Assembly (NCBI RefSeq): GCF_028728065.1
Contig: NZ_CP117811.1
Span: 1,674,001-1,738,000 of the forward strand
DNA: 64,000 nt
Source: Lentisphaera profundi
GTDB lineage: Bacteria; Verrucomicrobiota; Lentisphaeria; Lentisphaerales; Lentisphaeraceae
Direction of reading: 5' to 3'
Below are positions 13,793 through 58,429 of the stretch, piece after piece (within the stretch, counting starts at the first letter, position 1; each line of letters begins with the position of its first letter). The notes under the pieces are model-generated. The model was not told the DNA's origin. It ran no database searches and worked only from the letters and a program-made list of their open reading frames with translations. A program made the translations under genes and the position numbers.

Positions 13793-15808
13793 TCACGGAA
13801 TATTTTTAATTTTATACTGAAGTTTAGGTAGATCTCTTTTTATATCTGTTTCCTGACTGGCATCAATGATCAAAAGTTTAAGTTTTTTGAGTTCTTTAAA
13901 GCCCAACATATTGTGTATACGTGTACTCGATATATCCAATTCCTCTAGATTAGGCATTCCCATAAACTGATAGGAGTCATTGCTACTTGTTTGACTTATA
14001 TTGAGTTTCTTTAAATTTTTCATCTGTAAATTCCCCGCACCCAAAACTCCCGTTTTTTGCAAGGAAAGCTCTTCTAGTGAAGAGCAAATATTTAAACTCT
14101 CAGGGTAAATAATACCACTATTAAACAAATCGACTTTTAATGGCTTCAGCAAGTATAAGGGCCCTGGATTTTTTATCCCCAATTCATCGCGTAAAATCAC
14201 TTCCTTGCCTGTTTTATAAGTATTCACTTTCAAATTAGGTAAATGAGCTAAGCCGCGGTGAGATACTTTTAAATACCAACGGTAACACTGAACTCTCTCT
14301 TCTAATGTTATTTCATTTTTCATAAGGCTTAAGAGTAAATATTCGCTAAAGGCATAATCCAGATGGCTTACAATTTCATCCATGTGTTGCAATAACTCTA
14401 AAATATCTAAGCCTTGTAAAACCTTAACTAAACTCATCGCTTTTTCGTGCTTCATTTTTTGAAAGGTGCTCGTCGCTTCCGCCCAGTTCCTTTCTGCTAT
14501 GTACAGTCTTCCCTGAAAATAAAGAACTCCGGAGCTATTTGGGTCAAATTGACGAGCCACACTAAAGGCCTTGTTCATCTCCGAAAAATCTTTTTTAGCG
14601 AGGCTATTATAGGCAATCATCAGCTGCCGCTTAGATTCTAATTTTAATAATTCTTGACGCGCAAGTTCTTTCTCTTGAAGGTTTTTATTGAGCCGTTCAA
14701 CTTGCTTACGAGCTCTTACTGCACTCTCCTTTTCTTGAACGGCTAGCTGACGACTTTCTTCTATTTGAATAACTGAGTACAAGATTAACATCGCCAAACA
14801 GCTCAATGAGCTAAACAGTAAAAGGCAAAAACTCTTATTTCGTAAATACATGAGCTTTAATAACCGTAACAAAGATGCCTTCTCAGCATTTGTAGCATAA
14901 CCTTGTACATAACGTTTGAGATCCTCCAGCATTTCAGACATGCTCAAGTAACGTTGACTAGCTTGTGAAGAAAGGCCCTTATTGCAAATAGCCACAAGTC
15001 CATGAGGCAAAAAATTTGCCCCCAGCTTATCTGGACAAGACAAACTACGTTCACTTGTTGAACGCAATTGTACCGGCCGTTGACCGCTAAGTATTTCATA
15101 GAGCATGGCCGCCAAGGCATAAATATCATTAGATGCCTGAGGCGACTGCTTTTCAAAGCGTTCGGGTGCTATATAACCCGGCGTACCTTTTATATTTTCG
15201 TTGGTCCCTTTGCGAATATACTTTAATACCTTAGATAAATCCTTATCCAAAAAACACTCATGCGCGGTGCTAACTCCCTGCCCCAATTCTGCTATCCCCC
15301 AATCACAGATTACGACCTCGCCAAAATTCCCTATTCTTATATTAGCCGGTTTCAAATCTAAGTGCACCACACCTAGTGAATGCGCATAATTCACACCTTC
15401 ACATATCTTCACAAATATGTCAATCATATTCGCCAGCAGGTAATCTTGAGTCATAACTTTATTCATATCTTCACCTAGAACTTCTTTCATGGTGAAGAAG
15501 GGTTCATTCTCCTTAATCAATCCAACATCGTAAACTGGCATAATATTAGGATGTTGTAAAAATGAATTCAGCCGGCCTTCTCTTACAAAAAGCTCATTGA
15601 TCTCCTCGCTCTTGGGTTTAACCATAACGACTTCGCGATCCGTGTGACTATCGAGACAACGATAGACGTATTTCATGCCACCTTCGCAGATGAGCTCTAA
15701 ATTCTTATAACGTTCACCACATAGCTCCAAGTCTTGCATCAAAGCAAGTTCTTCTTGTCGCAAAATCTCGGTTTGATCATATATCTCATCTAAAAGATCT
15801 GAATTCAT
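13793..15808 (-). CDS. Membrane Ser/Thr protein kinase with TPR-like and leucine-rich C-terminal domain
   Basis: A 671-residue protein. The kinase domain (about 34-300) has a glycine loop CEGGMKYVY, Lys64 (VMVKP), catalytic Asp151 in HLDLKPAN (Leu replaces the usual Arg of HRD), DWG in place of DFG at 169-171, and an APE motif in GTPGYIAPERF. One transmembrane helix lies near residue 330-350 (LLLFSSLSCLAMLILYSVIQ), then a coiled coil, TPR-like helices and a leucine-rich segment (LEELDISSTRIHNMLGF). It is divergent from an ECF sigma gene 111 bases away, an arrangement frequent in this phylum. The kinase should be active. Confidence 0.88.
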   Translation of the reverse strand: MNSDLLDEIYDQTEILRQEELALMQDLELCGERYKNLELICEGGMKYVYRCLDSHTDREVVMVKPKSEEINELFVREGRLNSFLQHPNIMPVYDVGLIKENEPFFTMKEVLGEDMNKVMTQDYLLANMIDIFVKICEGVNYAHSLGVVHLDLKPANIRIGNFGEVVICDWGIAELGQGVSTAHECFLDKDLSKVLKYIRKGTNENIKGTPGYIAPERFEKQSPQASNDIYALAAMLYEILSGQRPVQLRSTSERSLSCPDKLGANFLPHGLVAICNKGLSSQASQRYLSMSEMLEDLKRYVQGYATNAEKASLLRLLKLMYLRNKSFCLLLFSSLSCLAMLILYSVIQIEESRQLAVQEKESAVRARKQVERLNKNLQEKELARQELLKLESKRQLMIAYNSLAKKDFSEMNKAFSVARQFDPNSSGVLYFQGRLYIAERNWAEATSTFQKMKHEKAMSLVKVLQGLDILELLQHMDEIVSHLDYAFSEYLLLSLMKNEITLEERVQCYRWYLKVSHRGLAHLPNLKVNTYKTGKEVILRDELGIKNPGPLYLLKPLKVDLFNSGIIYPESLNICSSLEELSLQKTGVLGAGNLQMKNLKKLNISQTSSNDSYQFMGMPNLEELDISSTRIHNMLGFKELKKLKLLIIDASQETDIKRDLPKLQYKIKNIP

Positions 15809-45522: not shown

Positions 45523-45813
45523 ATGATTAACCATGGCGTAGTTTTCACACTTAAGAAGGACTCAGCTCTGAGTCGAGAAGAATTTTTTGCTGAAGCACTC
45601 AAGCTCAAAAAAATTAACCCCGTTATTAAATTTAAAATTGTTCGAGAGACGAGTTCAAAAAACACCTTCGAATTTGGTTTATTCATGAAATTCCAAAACC
45701 CCGAAGCCTACGCCTTATATAACAATCACCCCGATCATTTGCACTTTATCCAGAACATCTGGATCCCCAATATTGAAGACTTCATGGAAATCGATTTCGA
45801 AAAAATCCTCTAA
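45523..45813 (+). CDS. Dabb (stress-responsive alpha/beta barrel) domain protein
   Basis: A 96-residue protein made of a single ferredoxin-like Dabb domain: NHGVVFTLKKD at the start, the Dabb-type FEFGLFMKFQNPEAYALYNNHPDHL and a final IEDFMEIDFE. Members dimerise into a barrel, and most have no assigned reaction. No signal peptide is present. It stands 73 bases before a sulfatase on the same strand. Confidence 0.85.
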   Translation: MINHGVVFTLKKDSALSREEFFAEALKLKKINPVIKFKIVRETSSKNTFEFGLFMKFQNPEAYALYNNHPDHLHFIQNIWIPNIEDFMEIDFEKIL

Positions 45814-45886
45814 AAATTTTAATTAAGTGTAAGCCTTAGTTTTTCGTGGTGTATTTTATATAACACGAATTTTAACTAAGGATTTC

Positions 45887-49082: not shown

Positions 49083-50981
49083 ATGAGTACAGAAAATAAT
49101 ACTAGCACTATTAATGATGATTCTGAACTTAGCCTATGGAAAAAAAACAATCTCAATTCTACAAAGGACGATTCACGTTACAGCGATATTTCTCTGATTT
49201 CATCACGCAAAAATAAAAACATATACTCTGCACATGATAAGAAGTTTAATCGTACCATTACACTCGTGGAACCTAATGATGACAATGAAGATCAACTAGA
49301 CTTCATCAACGAAATCTTAATTACTTCATCTTTTGAGCATCCCAACATAATTCAAATTCTTGATTTTGGTGTTTGGAAAGAAGACATTCCTTACTACACC
49401 ATGCAGGAGACTGATAGCTTAGCTTTTAAAGATTATATCAGTAATGAAAATTCTTCCGAGAGTCAAAATCTTACGATATTTTTAAAAACCTGCGAGGCCT
49501 TGTCCTACGCTCATTCAAAACACATCACCCACAACACTCTCGACACGACAAATATTCATATAAGTCCCAGTGGTGAAGTCACCATCTCTGGATGGAAACA
49601 AATTAATAAAGTTGAAGTTCAAACTCAATCTACGCCTCCAGAGAATCAAGATAAAACGAAAGGTACTGCTTCAGAAGAAAATGAGGAAGCAGATCAAGAG
49701 AAAGCTTCAGAAGAAAATGAGGAAGCAGATCAGGAAAATAAAGATACGGAAGTGCCCCTCAATATAAACGCTGATATTTCCAGCCTCGGGTCTATCCTTA
49801 AAATACTCTATTCGCAAGATCCGGAAAAAAATCCTCCAGAAGCTATCAGTGTTGCTATTACAAAAACTCTAACTAGCGCTCTAACTAATAATCCCGAGCA
49901 AAGCTACCAAAATGTTAATGAGCTAAAAGGAGAAATCGAGGATTTCCTTAAAAGTCAGACCTCAAATACACAAGAAGCCGGATTCTTTAAGAGCATTAAT
50001 TTACTGTTTCAAGAAAATCAAAGTATCTGCTCAGTACTTTTACTGACCCTTGGTCTTCTTATCGCTTTTTCGGTTTATTCATTGATGGAGATATATGATA
50101 AAAATATCGTCCTAAAAAAGTCTGTCGAACAAGTAAAAAAAGACAATCGTAAGCTTAAAAAATCACTTAAAGTAGAAGCCACAATAAATGCGAAATTCCT
50201 GAAGTCAGAACTTCAAAAAACTGAAAAACTCATGAGCTACCCACTCTATTTTCAATCACCAAATAGCTCATCAAAACAAGCTTTAGATATTTACTTCAGT
50301 CAAAGAGATCAAAAAAAGCATCATAAAGAAAAATTTATGATCCTAATGATAAGACAGGATTTTGAGTCAATAGTGAAACGAAAGATCAAAGCTCCACAAG
50401 CGCTGATAAGAATTGCTCGAAATTTCGCAAAAAAACCAAAAGCTGAGAATGGTCTACTAAAGGAAGAAAAAGATTTTAACCTGCTTCTTATACTCGTCAA
50501 TAAACTACCTTTTGCCATGCAGGAATTTAAAGAGCAATTTATCGAAAGAGCTATTTGCTATAGAAATGAAATTGAACAAAAGACGACCGTATCACCAAAT
50601 ATAGTCAGACAACTAATAAAAGTTTGGAACCCCGATTGGTCCACTAAAAACTTTTCTTACAATCCCGATAAAATGAATTCCAGACTAAAAGGGTCTGAGG
50701 TCAAAATACTTTTAGATGATACGCCCTACTCCTCTGGAAAATCTTTTTTGCGCTTTCTCAAAATTAACAATCTTGATTTGAGACAATCCGGCATAGAATC
50801 TTTAGATCAGATAAATGGTCTAAAGCTACAAAACCTGGATATCAGAGCTACAAATATTCAAAACTTTCCCACACACGAAACTGCACTAAAGATAGATACT
50901 CTTCTTCTTAATCCAGATCAATTTGATGATGAGGCTTTAAAGAATGTCCCTGCTACTGTAAATATCATAAAGAGAAAATAA
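49083..50981 (+). CDS. Membrane pseudokinase (degenerate Ser/Thr kinase) with leucine-rich C-terminus
   Basis: A 632-residue protein with the same plan as the kinase at 13793-15808: kinase-like domain (about 30-280), one membrane helix (about 317-338, SVLLLTLGLLIAFSVYS), coiled coil and a leucine-rich tail. By alignment with that kinase, Lys64 is Glu63, the HxD Asp is Thr152 (HNTLDTTN) and DWG is SGW (169-171). All three key catalytic residues are lost, so it should not phosphorylate. An acidic insert (about 195-220) repeats KASEENEEADQE. The intact length argues for a kept scaffold or binding role. Confidence 0.85.
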   Translation: MSTENNTSTINDDSELSLWKKNNLNSTKDDSRYSDISLISSRKNKNIYSAHDKKFNRTITLVEPNDDNEDQLDFINEILITSSFEHPNIIQILDFGVWKEDIPYYTMQETDSLAFKDYISNENSSESQNLTIFLKTCEALSYAHSKHITHNTLDTTNIHISPSGEVTISGWKQINKVEVQTQSTPPENQDKTKGTASEENEEADQEKASEENEEADQENKDTEVPLNINADISSLGSILKILYSQDPEKNPPEAISVAITKTLTSALTNNPEQSYQNVNELKGEIEDFLKSQTSNTQEAGFFKSINLLFQENQSICSVLLLTLGLLIAFSVYSLMEIYDKNIVLKKSVEQVKKDNRKLKKSLKVEATINAKFLKSELQKTEKLMSYPLYFQSPNSSSKQALDIYFSQRDQKKHHKEKFMILMIRQDFESIVKRKIKAPQALIRIARNFAKKPKAENGLLKEEKDFNLLLILVNKLPFAMQEFKEQFIERAICYRNEIEQKTTVSPNIVRQLIKVWNPDWSTKNFSYNPDKMNSRLKGSEVKILLDDTPYSSGKSFLRFLKINNLDLRQSGIESLDQINGLKLQNLDIRATNIQNFPTHETALKIDTLLLNPDQFDDEALKNVPATVNIIKRK

Positions 50982-57109: not shown

Positions 57110-58429
57110 ATGGAAGCTGTTAAAACAATCTATAACAAAGAACTGGCGGAAGACGACTTCCACAGCAGCTCCCAAGATCATGACTATCTAGATATCTTTG
57201 ACAAGCTCCCCGATTTAAACGATCGTTATCGCGTACGTAAGATCATTGGTCGTGGCGGGAATTCAACGATTGTCAAAGCACGTGACCTGCAACTCGGACG
57301 TAGTGTTGCTTTAAAGATCCTCAAAGACCAATATAAAAAGAAAGTAAAGGTCTCTCAGCGTTTCATCAACGAAGCGCTCATCATGGCCTACATGCAACAC
57401 CCCGGCATCATCCCCGTTTACAACTTGGGGAAAATCGGTAATAATGATGTTTTTTACTCAATGCCTATCATTAGTGGAAAAACCTTACGTGAAATTTATG
57501 ACGAAAAGAATCTAAAAGATCTTTTAAAAATATTCAAAACCACTTGTCATACCTTAGCTTATGCTCATGAGCATAATATAATTCATCGCGATATAAAACC
57601 AGAAAACATCATGGTTGATGAATACGAGCGTGTTTTACTCTTGGACTGGGGCTTAGCTAGGAACCTCAATGAGCAGGAACCACAAGATGACCCTATGCCT
57701 GAAGAAAAGGAACTTAGCCGTTTTGAGGATAAAGGCGATATTCGCTTAACTATGAATGGTGAAATCAGTGGGACTCCGGCCTACATGGCTCCTGAACAAA
57801 CTCTTGGGCTTGGACGCAGCACCAATCGTGGTACAGATGTATTTGCGATGGGAATCATTCTCTACGAGATCCTTTACGGCACCCATCCTTTCACCAATTC
57901 AAACTCGACAAATTTTCGACAAATTTTTAACGAAATCAAAAATACCACGCCTTCTTTTCCTAAACGTGGTCGCGGAGGGAGCTTAATTCACCCTACGCTC
58001 GCGAAAATATGTCGTCGTTGCCTTCATAAAATACCCGACAATCGTTATCAAGACGCGATTCATTTAAGTGAAGAATTAGACAATTTCCACAAAAAAGTAA
58101 AAAAGAATGCACTTATAAAAGCCTTAGTTCTAGTTTGTCTATTTGCGCTTTGCTCATCCGTGACTATTTTCCTTTATCTTAATAGTTACAAATCTGAAGT
58201 AGTGAATAAAGATATGCAAATGCTGTGTATGCTATTGAATCGCTCCAATCCCTCTGATGAGGCTTTAAATGCGGTCCGATTGAAGTTGCAAATGCATAAA
58301 AATGATTTACATAAAGCTGATAAAAACAATTTAAAATTTATTGTTGGCCGACTGCAAGACCTAAGTTCAAAGGGAATTCAGTTTGAGTCATCATTAAAAA
58401 TACTGGAAAAAGGAGCCTCGTTGCCGTGA
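57110..58429 (+). CDS. Membrane Ser/Thr protein kinase (PknB-like)
   Basis: A 439-residue protein with a canonical kinase domain (about 40-330): glycine loop IGRGGNSTIVKA, Lys69 in VALKIL, HRDIKPEN with Asp161, DWG at 179-181 and GTPAYMAPEQ. One transmembrane helix follows (about 335-360, ALVLVCLFALCSSVTIFLYL), with a short ~75-residue periplasmic or external tail and no PASTA repeats. It overlaps the TPR gene by four bases (GTGA). It probably controls envelope-related steps encoded with it. Confidence 0.93.
   Translation: MEAVKTIYNKELAEDDFHSSSQDHDYLDIFDKLPDLNDRYRVRKIIGRGGNSTIVKARDLQLGRSVALKILKDQYKKKVKVSQRFINEALIMAYMQHPGIIPVYNLGKIGNNDVFYSMPIISGKTLREIYDEKNLKDLLKIFKTTCHTLAYAHEHNIIHRDIKPENIMVDEYERVLLLDWGLARNLNEQEPQDDPMPEEKELSRFEDKGDIRLTMNGEISGTPAYMAPEQTLGLGRSTNRGTDVFAMGIILYEILYGTHPFTNSNSTNFRQIFNEIKNTTPSFPKRGRGGSLIHPTLAKICRRCLHKIPDNRYQDAIHLSEELDNFHKKVKKNALIKALVLVCLFALCSSVTIFLYLNSYKSEVVNKDMQMLCMLLNRSNPSDEALNAVRLKLQMHKNDLHKADKNNLKFIVGRLQDLSSKGIQFESSLKILEKGASLP

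Follow-up and report, generated by a model that had tools for sequence, protein, structure and literature searches.

A predicted pseudokinase conserved in Lentisphaera and its likely descent from sigma-paired, WNK-like bacterial membrane kinases

Introduction

Several groups of ECF sigma factors (ECF59, ECF61, ECF62, ECF217, and ECF283) are described as kinase-paired on the grounds of synteny (PMC13147305; PMC8999054). Among eukaryotic protein kinases (ePKs), Kannan et al. (2007) describe Wnk as the sole functional family without Lys72 (PKA numbering) and report for it the same lysine shift as the one presented below; a similar shift, to Arg55, was suggested by these authors for the CAK-chloro family (PMC1821047). 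Bacterial pseudokinases have also been reviewed, and the pseudokinase domains of MviN, for example, are reported to dimerize back to back, while the terms Lentisphaer, Planctomyc, and Verrucomicrob are absent from the main text of that review (PMC12599244). For the PVC superphylum, a survey of kinases requires the K, D, and D sites for a kinase to be called functional (PMC11032199).

Here, we describe a gene (P0001) of Lentisphaera profundi and the kinase family to which it belongs. The window analyzed is a stretch of 64,000 nucleotides (NZ_CP117811.1, positions 1,674,001 to 1,738,000), and an initial annotation of it had presented P0001 as a pseudokinase with all three catalytic residues replaced. 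Judging from sequence comparison, P0001 is almost certainly a conserved pseudokinase that has been selected rather than left to decay, and the relocation of a lysine across its widespread, mostly sigma-paired family is of more interest than the pseudokinase claim itself.

The Target Gene and Its Predicted Fold

P0001 is a 632-residue protein (Table 1) on which the Pfam Pkinase profile scores 37.6 bits and covers residues 65–170 only, compared with 100.9 bits for the kinase encoded at 13793 (P0002). Structure prediction, one of the checks proposed by the initial annotation, bore out a retained kinase fold: the AlphaFold2 (AF2) model of P0001 has a mean pLDDT of 84.6, and its top matches in the PDB are PknB chains (VIA-align to PknB 1o6y: Z 24.4, 216 aligned, rmsd 2.9). 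The P0002 model has the same best structural matches, with Z of about 27 versus about 24 for P0001. WNK1 was absent among the 50 structural matches listed for the two models, which excludes nothing. The architecture outside the catalytic residues had been described as whole, and this holds for the membrane helix, the long coil, and the folded C-terminal part, but not for the GTPGYxAPE segment, which is gone. In the model, a single continuous 71-residue helix spans residues 313–383, and from residue 391 onward the 10-residue pLDDT means lie mostly at 93–98 (lowest 78), while a Pfam search of the protein returned no match in this C-terminal tail. Residues 338–632 probably lie outside the membrane, according to the topology that we infer. 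The acidic repeat that had been regarded as an insertion in the kinase domain is real, but it stands where GTPGYxAPE belongs and does not interrupt a whole domain; residues 176–223 are unstructured in the model (pLDDT below 50). Tandem Repeats Finder reports an imperfect array at 49675–49739, a poor description of this repeat, in which two 36-bp units can be read.

Table 1. Features of the window discussed in the text, with positions counted from its first nucleotide.
Feature	Position	Strand	Basis
P0002, intact member of the WNK-like family (G-loop K46, HxD D151, DWG D169)	13793..15808	-	AF2 model
ECF-type sigma gene, divergent from P0002	15914..16501	+	PF04542, 5.8e-13
Dabb (stress-responsive A/B barrel) gene, head of the cassette	45523..45813	+	PF07876, 1e-12
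Short, imperfect, AT-rich inverted repeat GTGTATTTTATATAACAC upstream of the sulfatase genes	45849..45866	+	pattern search; conservation
Sulfatase A, 471 aa	45887..47302	+	PF00884, 4.8e-39
Sulfatase B, 464 aa, first gene upstream of P0001	47305..48699	+	PF00884, 3e-58
P0001, predicted pseudokinase gene, 632 aa	49083..50981	+	intact ORF; Pkinase match; AF2 kinase fold
N-lobe, residues 30–110 (with K45, V62, E63, and αC Glu77)	49170..49412	+	family alignment
K45, WNK-type G-loop Lys	49215-49217	+	alignment
V62, position of PKA Lys72	49266-49268	+	alignment
E63, PKA position 73	49269-49271	+	alignment
T152, where the HxD Asp is expected	49536..49538	+	alignment to P0002 and family
G170, where the DFG/DWG Asp is expected	49590..49592	+	alignment to P0002 and family
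Acidic disordered stretch, residues 173–228, in place of the activation segment	49599..49766	+	composition; pLDDT
Two 36-bp repeat units in the acidic stretch	49668-49703, 49704-49739	+	read from sequence
Putative membrane helix, about residues 311–337	50013..50093	+	hydrophobic run read by eye; helix in model
Coil, helical repeats, and beta/leucine-rich tail, residues 338–632	50094..50978	+	AF2

The claim that all three catalytic residues are replaced stood for both aspartates and failed for the lysine, because this family carries its lysine in the G loop instead, where P0001 retains it as K45. Alignment to P0002 and to the family confirmed Thr152 in place of the HxD Asp and also the loss of the DFG Asp, but the residue now at the latter site is G170, with S169, the one first named, preceding it. 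Glu63, which had been taken for the lost ATP-binding lysine, is rejected as such: the position of PKA Lys72 is occupied by V62, and E63 falls on position 73, where the three closest intact paralogs also carry Glu and where residues vary freely (14 different ones among 76 family proteins). The misreading probably arose because P0002 happens to carry Lys at position 73. P0001 thus combines a kinase fold in the AF2 model and the loss of the HxD and DFG aspartates with a retained lysine. Loss of the lysine is a usual but not a required mark of pseudokinases, and the loss of one or more motifs suffices. The protein would be expected to lack phosphotransfer.

A Bacterial Kinase Family with a Relocated Lysine

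The family was characterized through alignment A1, whose 76 intact proteins are the whole-frame members among the best 80 of 417 confirmed relatives. These were picked by similarity to the relatives of the target, so the 80 loci are a family by choice and no sample of all kinases; three of the named loci (L187, L197, and L208) were left out for broken frames. The AF2 alignments took in 57 of the 77 other loci together with P0001 and P0002, and the N-lobe profile was built with 24 of 29 fragments. PKA position 55, the third glycine of the G loop and the position of K45 in the target, is Lys in all 76 intact relatives, and position 72 is Ala in 75 and Thr in one, with Lys in none. The αC Glu, HxD Asp, Asn171, DWG Asp, Trp185, and αF Asp are invariant in this set. 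An independent profile alignment to Mycobacterium tuberculosis PknA likewise places the family Lys on the third glycine of PknA and the family Ala on its Lys72. Records of these relatives come from Verrucomicrobiota, Kiritimatiellota, and Planctomycetota, and from Armatimonadota by one 3.7-kb MAG contig; many are MAGs, and the isolates among them include Lentisphaera marina, Pontiella sulfatireligans, Rhodopirellula sallentina, and Pelagicoccus mobilis.

The genome that holds the target (G000; 5.46 Mb, two contigs) yielded 107 Pkinase hits, of which 103 ORFs were classed and four lacked a complete ORF in the stretches examined. The WNK-like class, defined by Lys55 without Lys72, has 58 members (59 minus one spurious 1049-aa row), and the Lys72 class has 35, including a few poorly aligned proteins. 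Lys55 and Lys72 never occur together (0/103), and neither is present in nine of the 103, mostly gapped or non-Hanks proteins. Position 72 in the 58 WNK-like kinases is Ala in 56 and Val in two, the target and P0002. Both aspartates are kept in 56/58; the exceptions are the target, the only one to have lost the HxD Asp, and L145 (G000:C2:1238696-1239805), a 369-aa kinase that keeps its HxD Asp and has Glu at the DWG Asp. Three further loci of this genome were observed in passing. L147:1174-2108 (G000:C2:736673-737607, minus strand) encodes a WNK-like kinase of 248 aa, is followed closely on the same strand by another Pkinase hit, and is, from its sequence, a truncated or frameshifted copy; L015 (G000:C2:2453137-2455224) encodes a 695-aa ordinary-lysine kinase with Ser at the HxD Asp, an unrelated pseudokinase candidate; and L093 (G000:C2:2570896-2571696) is a degenerate kinase gene whose kinase match crosses four stop codons.

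Elsewhere in the phylum, 31 loci were examined outside this genome, with Lys55 and Ala72 in 19, Lys72 in 12, and both lysines in none; at one of them, L042, the profile alignment is shifted by a single position, and Lys72 was read from the sequence. In another family of the class (f5), genomes encode shorter WNK-like kinases (366–418 aa; L037, L039, L043, L051, L052, L055, L058, and L059), and Lys55 and Ala72 are found in all eight. A first tree was built with every third WNK-like kinase of G000 and the better-scoring Lys72 kinases, and a second left out four long-branched Lys72 rows, one shortened WNK-like row, and the two trait columns. With those columns removed, a single branch sets the Lys72 rows apart (97/75, in 95% of bootstrap trees, so that support is not full), and one change therefore explains the lysine trait. 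Given that Lys72 is the general kinase state, we infer that the change ran from Lys72 to Lys55.

Shared Losses and Retained Residues in Three Species

Orthologs of P0001 occur in two other species of the same genus, L. marina (G001; L032/L156; 53% identity) and the species of G002 (L033; 48%). A survey of orthologs for shared loss had been set beforehand as the refuting test, and these two species proved to lack both aspartates, APE, and the glycines of the G loop as well. Across the three orthologs, the HxD Asp has become Thr, Lys, and Lys, the DFG Asp Gly, Glu, and Gly, and the Gly-Gly of the G loop RK, CD, and NE; all three have also lost the Lys of the catalytic loop, the DWG Gly, and GTPGYxAPE. 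The same two aspartates, absent in 3/3 pseudokinases, are present in 76/76 intact relatives. Since the losses recur in the orthologs of two further species, they are not due to chance. Residues retained in 3/3 comprise the αC Glu77, His150 of HxD, Asn157, Trp171, and Asp231, and the relocated G-loop lysine is Lys in the target (K45), Lys in L. marina, and Arg in G002.

The persistence of this last residue as K/K/R could point to an active unconventional enzyme, acting by metal-independent or non-kinase transfer through Lys45, but that is very unlikely given that none of the three orthologs keeps either aspartate, the glycines of the G loop, or the Lys of the catalytic loop. To our knowledge, kinase-fold enzymes with unusual chemistry keep at least one metal-binding acid, which speaks further against such an activity. 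The activation segment has diverged in charge as well: acidic and basic residues number 17/5, 9/4, and 22/5 in the pseudokinases and 2–3/4–6 in three intact sisters, which corresponds to net charges of -12, -5, and -17 versus +2 to +4.

Whole-gene dN between the orthologs is 0.35–0.44 and dS is saturated (1.84, 1.93, and one value not computable), so dN/dS ratios are rough. For the matched species pair G001–G002, dN over the whole gene is 0.44 for the pseudokinase versus 0.13 for the intact sisters IN1–IN2b, and over the kinase part 0.52 versus 0.10, that is, 3.4-fold and about fivefold higher, respectively; the kinase-part range among all pseudokinases is 0.38–0.52. This faster protein change would fit a gene in decay or a null allele of recent origin. 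Such decay is nevertheless scarcely credible against an intact frame and a syntenic place in three species, a dN well below dS, and a confident fold model, and the recent null allele in particular is rejected, as syntenic orthologs in two other Lentisphaera species share the same losses with dN far below dS. The open frame also speaks against drift, because simulated neutral copies lose theirs: frames stayed open in 3/300 copies at 0.05 substitutions per site and in 0/300 at 0.1.

Conservation is uneven along the selected pseudokinase. The N-lobe is 56–62% identical between orthologs versus 42–47% for the C-lobe core (81 and 62 positions, respectively), a contrast absent from the intact sisters of G001 and G002 (N-lobe 88%, C-lobe 87%), and this weakly supports pairing with intact family kinases through the coil and N-lobe. 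The C-terminal parts of the orthologs are 53–60% identical, about as conserved as the N-lobe and more so than the C-lobe core. This pattern, together with the tight linkage to two sulfatase genes described below, could mean that the C-terminal domain alone matters, for example as a sulfatase scaffold or glycan receptor outside the inner membrane, and that the kinase fold is a leftover anchor. We consider this improbable, as E77, H150, N157, W171, and D231 are kept in 3/3 while the catalytic residues vary, which argues for a selected intracellular domain.

Sigma Factor Pairing and the Closest Intact Relatives

In G000, where 86 sigma70 region-2 matches were found in 5.46 Mb, such a match lies within 3 kb of 46/58 WNK-like kinases (5.4 expected by rotation, with none of 2000 rotations as high) versus 3/35 Lys72 kinases (3.3 expected). 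The target is one of the 12 unpaired WNK-like kinases; the 11 others have no sigma gene within 4 kb, and no sigma gene missed by Pfam was seen among ORFs of at least 100 aa in the 2.5–7 kb stretches around them. The lack of a sigma gene at P0001 is thus unusual but not unique. Among the named loci, a sigma homolog lies within 1.5 kb at 73/77, and the four without one are L156 (the L. marina ortholog of the target), L231, L163, and L235, of which the last two are cut on one side by the end of a contig or stretch. No sigma homolog was found among ORFs of at least 100 aa in a 17-kb stretch around P0001, and the nearest sigma70_r2 match is about 27 kb away.

P0002, which has a divergent sigma gene beside it, is a distant family member with 22% identity to P0001, and the window's third kinase, encoded at 57110, is an ordinary Lys72 kinase; sequence comparison revealed no link of P0001 to either. 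A hypothetical regulator or decoy role, as the initial annotation had suggested, would fit the data. The sigma factor beside P0002 reads DQSDLVQD in region 2.2 (from the translation), and ECF43-type activation is consequently not implied for it.

The closest intact relatives of P0001 are one copy in L. marina and two in G002, each following an overlapping sigma gene. One sigma-kinase pair is shared by the two species (sigma 83% and kinase 78% identical); in L. marina it is located downstream of the pseudokinase at a distance of about 3.6 kb, and in G002 it is on another contig. Neither an intact sister kinase nor an ortholog of the sigma was found in G000 (one genome, 96% complete): its best sigma by score is 41% identical to that of the sister pair, its best match to the sister kinase is the pseudokinase itself (44%), and the next intact kinase reaches 35% over most of its length, with others at 32–45%. 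A sigma gene also immediately precedes the kinase gene in each of eight further close relatives (in G004, G005, and G008), which brings the total to 11/11 of the closest intact relatives examined versus 0/3 pseudokinases. Pairing is therefore likely to be ancestral and its absence derived. In the tree, the intact sisters and the pseudokinases form a group at 100/100 and the three pseudokinases one clade within it, also at 100/100; the intact sisters may or may not form a clade of their own, and the letter make-up of the pseudokinases departs from the rest. P0001 likely arose by duplication from sigma-paired WNK-like membrane kinases.

Its place in this lineage raises the question of whether P0001 is a membrane-tethered, anti-sigma-like trap, in which the dead kinase domain would still bind an ECF sigma factor and, unable to phosphorylate it, keep it at the membrane until the C-terminal domain senses a ligand. 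The acidic activation segment present in 3/3 orthologs could contact basic sigma surfaces. On the other side, the pseudokinase has no paired sigma gene in any of the three species, the only one nearby is that of the intact L. marina pair at a distance of 3.6 kb, and the C-lobe, where substrates dock, is among the least conserved folded parts. A trap of this kind is accordingly unlikely.

A Conserved Sulfatase Cassette

In 3/3 species, the pseudokinase gene stands directly after the same two sulfatase genes. Sulfatase B is 87–91% identical to its copies in L. marina and G002, and sulfatase A is 73–78% identical, with the same gene order throughout. Upstream of sulfatase A, all three species share a conserved 3' part of the Dabb gene, which is the part that the comparison covered. 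L. marina and G002 each carry the inverted repeat of 45849–45866 at the same place with a one-base difference, and it is the single match in the window at up to three mismatches (0.12 expected; 12/100 shuffles have one). It is possible that this repeat is an operator. The gap of 294–383 bp before the pseudokinase, compared by eye in the three species, contains no clear conserved promoter.

At the level of the genome, at least 151 sulfatase matches were counted in the 5.46 Mb of G000. WNK-like kinases lie within 3 kb of a sulfatase in 14/58 cases (7.5 expected; 34/2000 rotations as high) and within 5 kb in 17/58 (11.1 expected; 81/2000), based on a sulfatase list that is a lower bound, as 150 of 251 candidates were scored. 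A strong family-wide link to sulfatases was rejected, the enrichment being weak.

Discussion

A possible mechanism follows from these comparisons, to which as a whole we give slightly less than even credence. P0001 would act as a non-catalytic co-receptor or decoy whose C-terminal domain, outside the membrane, would read a signal tied to the sulfated polymer attacked by both sulfatases. Its coil and N-lobe would bring it together with those family members that have intact catalytic residues and a sigma partner, and this pairing would alter, most likely damp or gate, the switching on of sigma factors by those kinases. The losses shared by 3/3 orthologs, the structural residues kept, synteny, dN below dS, the fold model, the sister group at 100/100, and the sigma pairing of the sisters all speak for such a role. 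Against it, the absence of the intact sister pair from G000 means that the partner there would be a more distant paralog, with an intact sigma-kinase pair near the pseudokinase only in L. marina. The contrast between N- and C-lobe is also modest, being a plain comparison of identities over 81 and 62 positions, respectively, and the raised dN (3.4-fold, and about fivefold in the kinase part) fits relaxed constraint too. The tie to a sulfated polymer, finally, comes from the gene neighborhood alone, and the sulfatase enrichment of the family is weak.

On a broader scale, we think it probable that the WNK-like family is a second large lineage of with-no-lysine kinases that arose in bacteria without descent from the eukaryotic one and was coupled to ECF-type sigma factors as a much expanded system of signaling at the cell surface, with 58 copies in one genome, and that the target is its selected dead co-receptor without a sigma partner. 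Under the K, D, and D rule of the PVC survey (PMC11032199), the family would be scored inactive, with its true pseudokinases concealed by dozens of false ones. Should the G-loop lysine function as it does in WNK, kinase evolution would have arrived at this solution repeatedly, and the sigma factors paired with these kinases provide an easy read-out for testing this lysine. The pseudokinase with its syntenic orthologs, in turn, offers a clean natural experiment that shows which features a bacterial receptor kinase retains once catalysis is gone. WNK kinases are anion-sensitive, and as a bolder and speculative extension, the pocket left by the moved lysine may make these marine kinases anion-sensitive as well. 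The literature matches listed (title and start of abstract) include no publication on a WNK-like bacterial kinase family, and an earlier description is possible.

Comparison with Known Systems

The family resembles eukaryotic WNK kinases in lacking the β3 lysine (PKA Lys72) and in carrying a lysine at the third G-loop glycine (PKA Gly55). It differs from them at position 72, which is Ala in the family (Val in the target and P0002) and Cys in WNK (according to PMC12599244). Its best PDB sequence matches are bacterial PknA and PknB, with WNK1 far lower amid other eukaryotic kinases, and its members are bacterial, membrane-anchored, and usually sigma-paired. The resemblance is likelier to reflect convergence than descent.

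In having a membrane kinase beside an ECF sigma gene, the family is like the described sigma-Ser/Thr kinase pairs, such as PknS-EcfK, PknT-EcfP, and those of ECF43 (PMC13147305; PMC8999054). P0001 itself departs from these pairs, as it has no adjacent sigma gene and would not be expected to phosphorylate, whereas its intact sisters do have such a gene. With the bacterial pseudokinases ActPs1-3, GLW, CP1, DYD, DLHK, EssB/YukC, and MviN, some of which are described as membrane-tethered dead kinases, P0001 shares degraded motifs and an altered activation loop (PMC12599244). In this comparison, which was made by shared traits and not by profile, P0001 is set apart from them by its two-sulfatase setting and its WNK-like ancestry.
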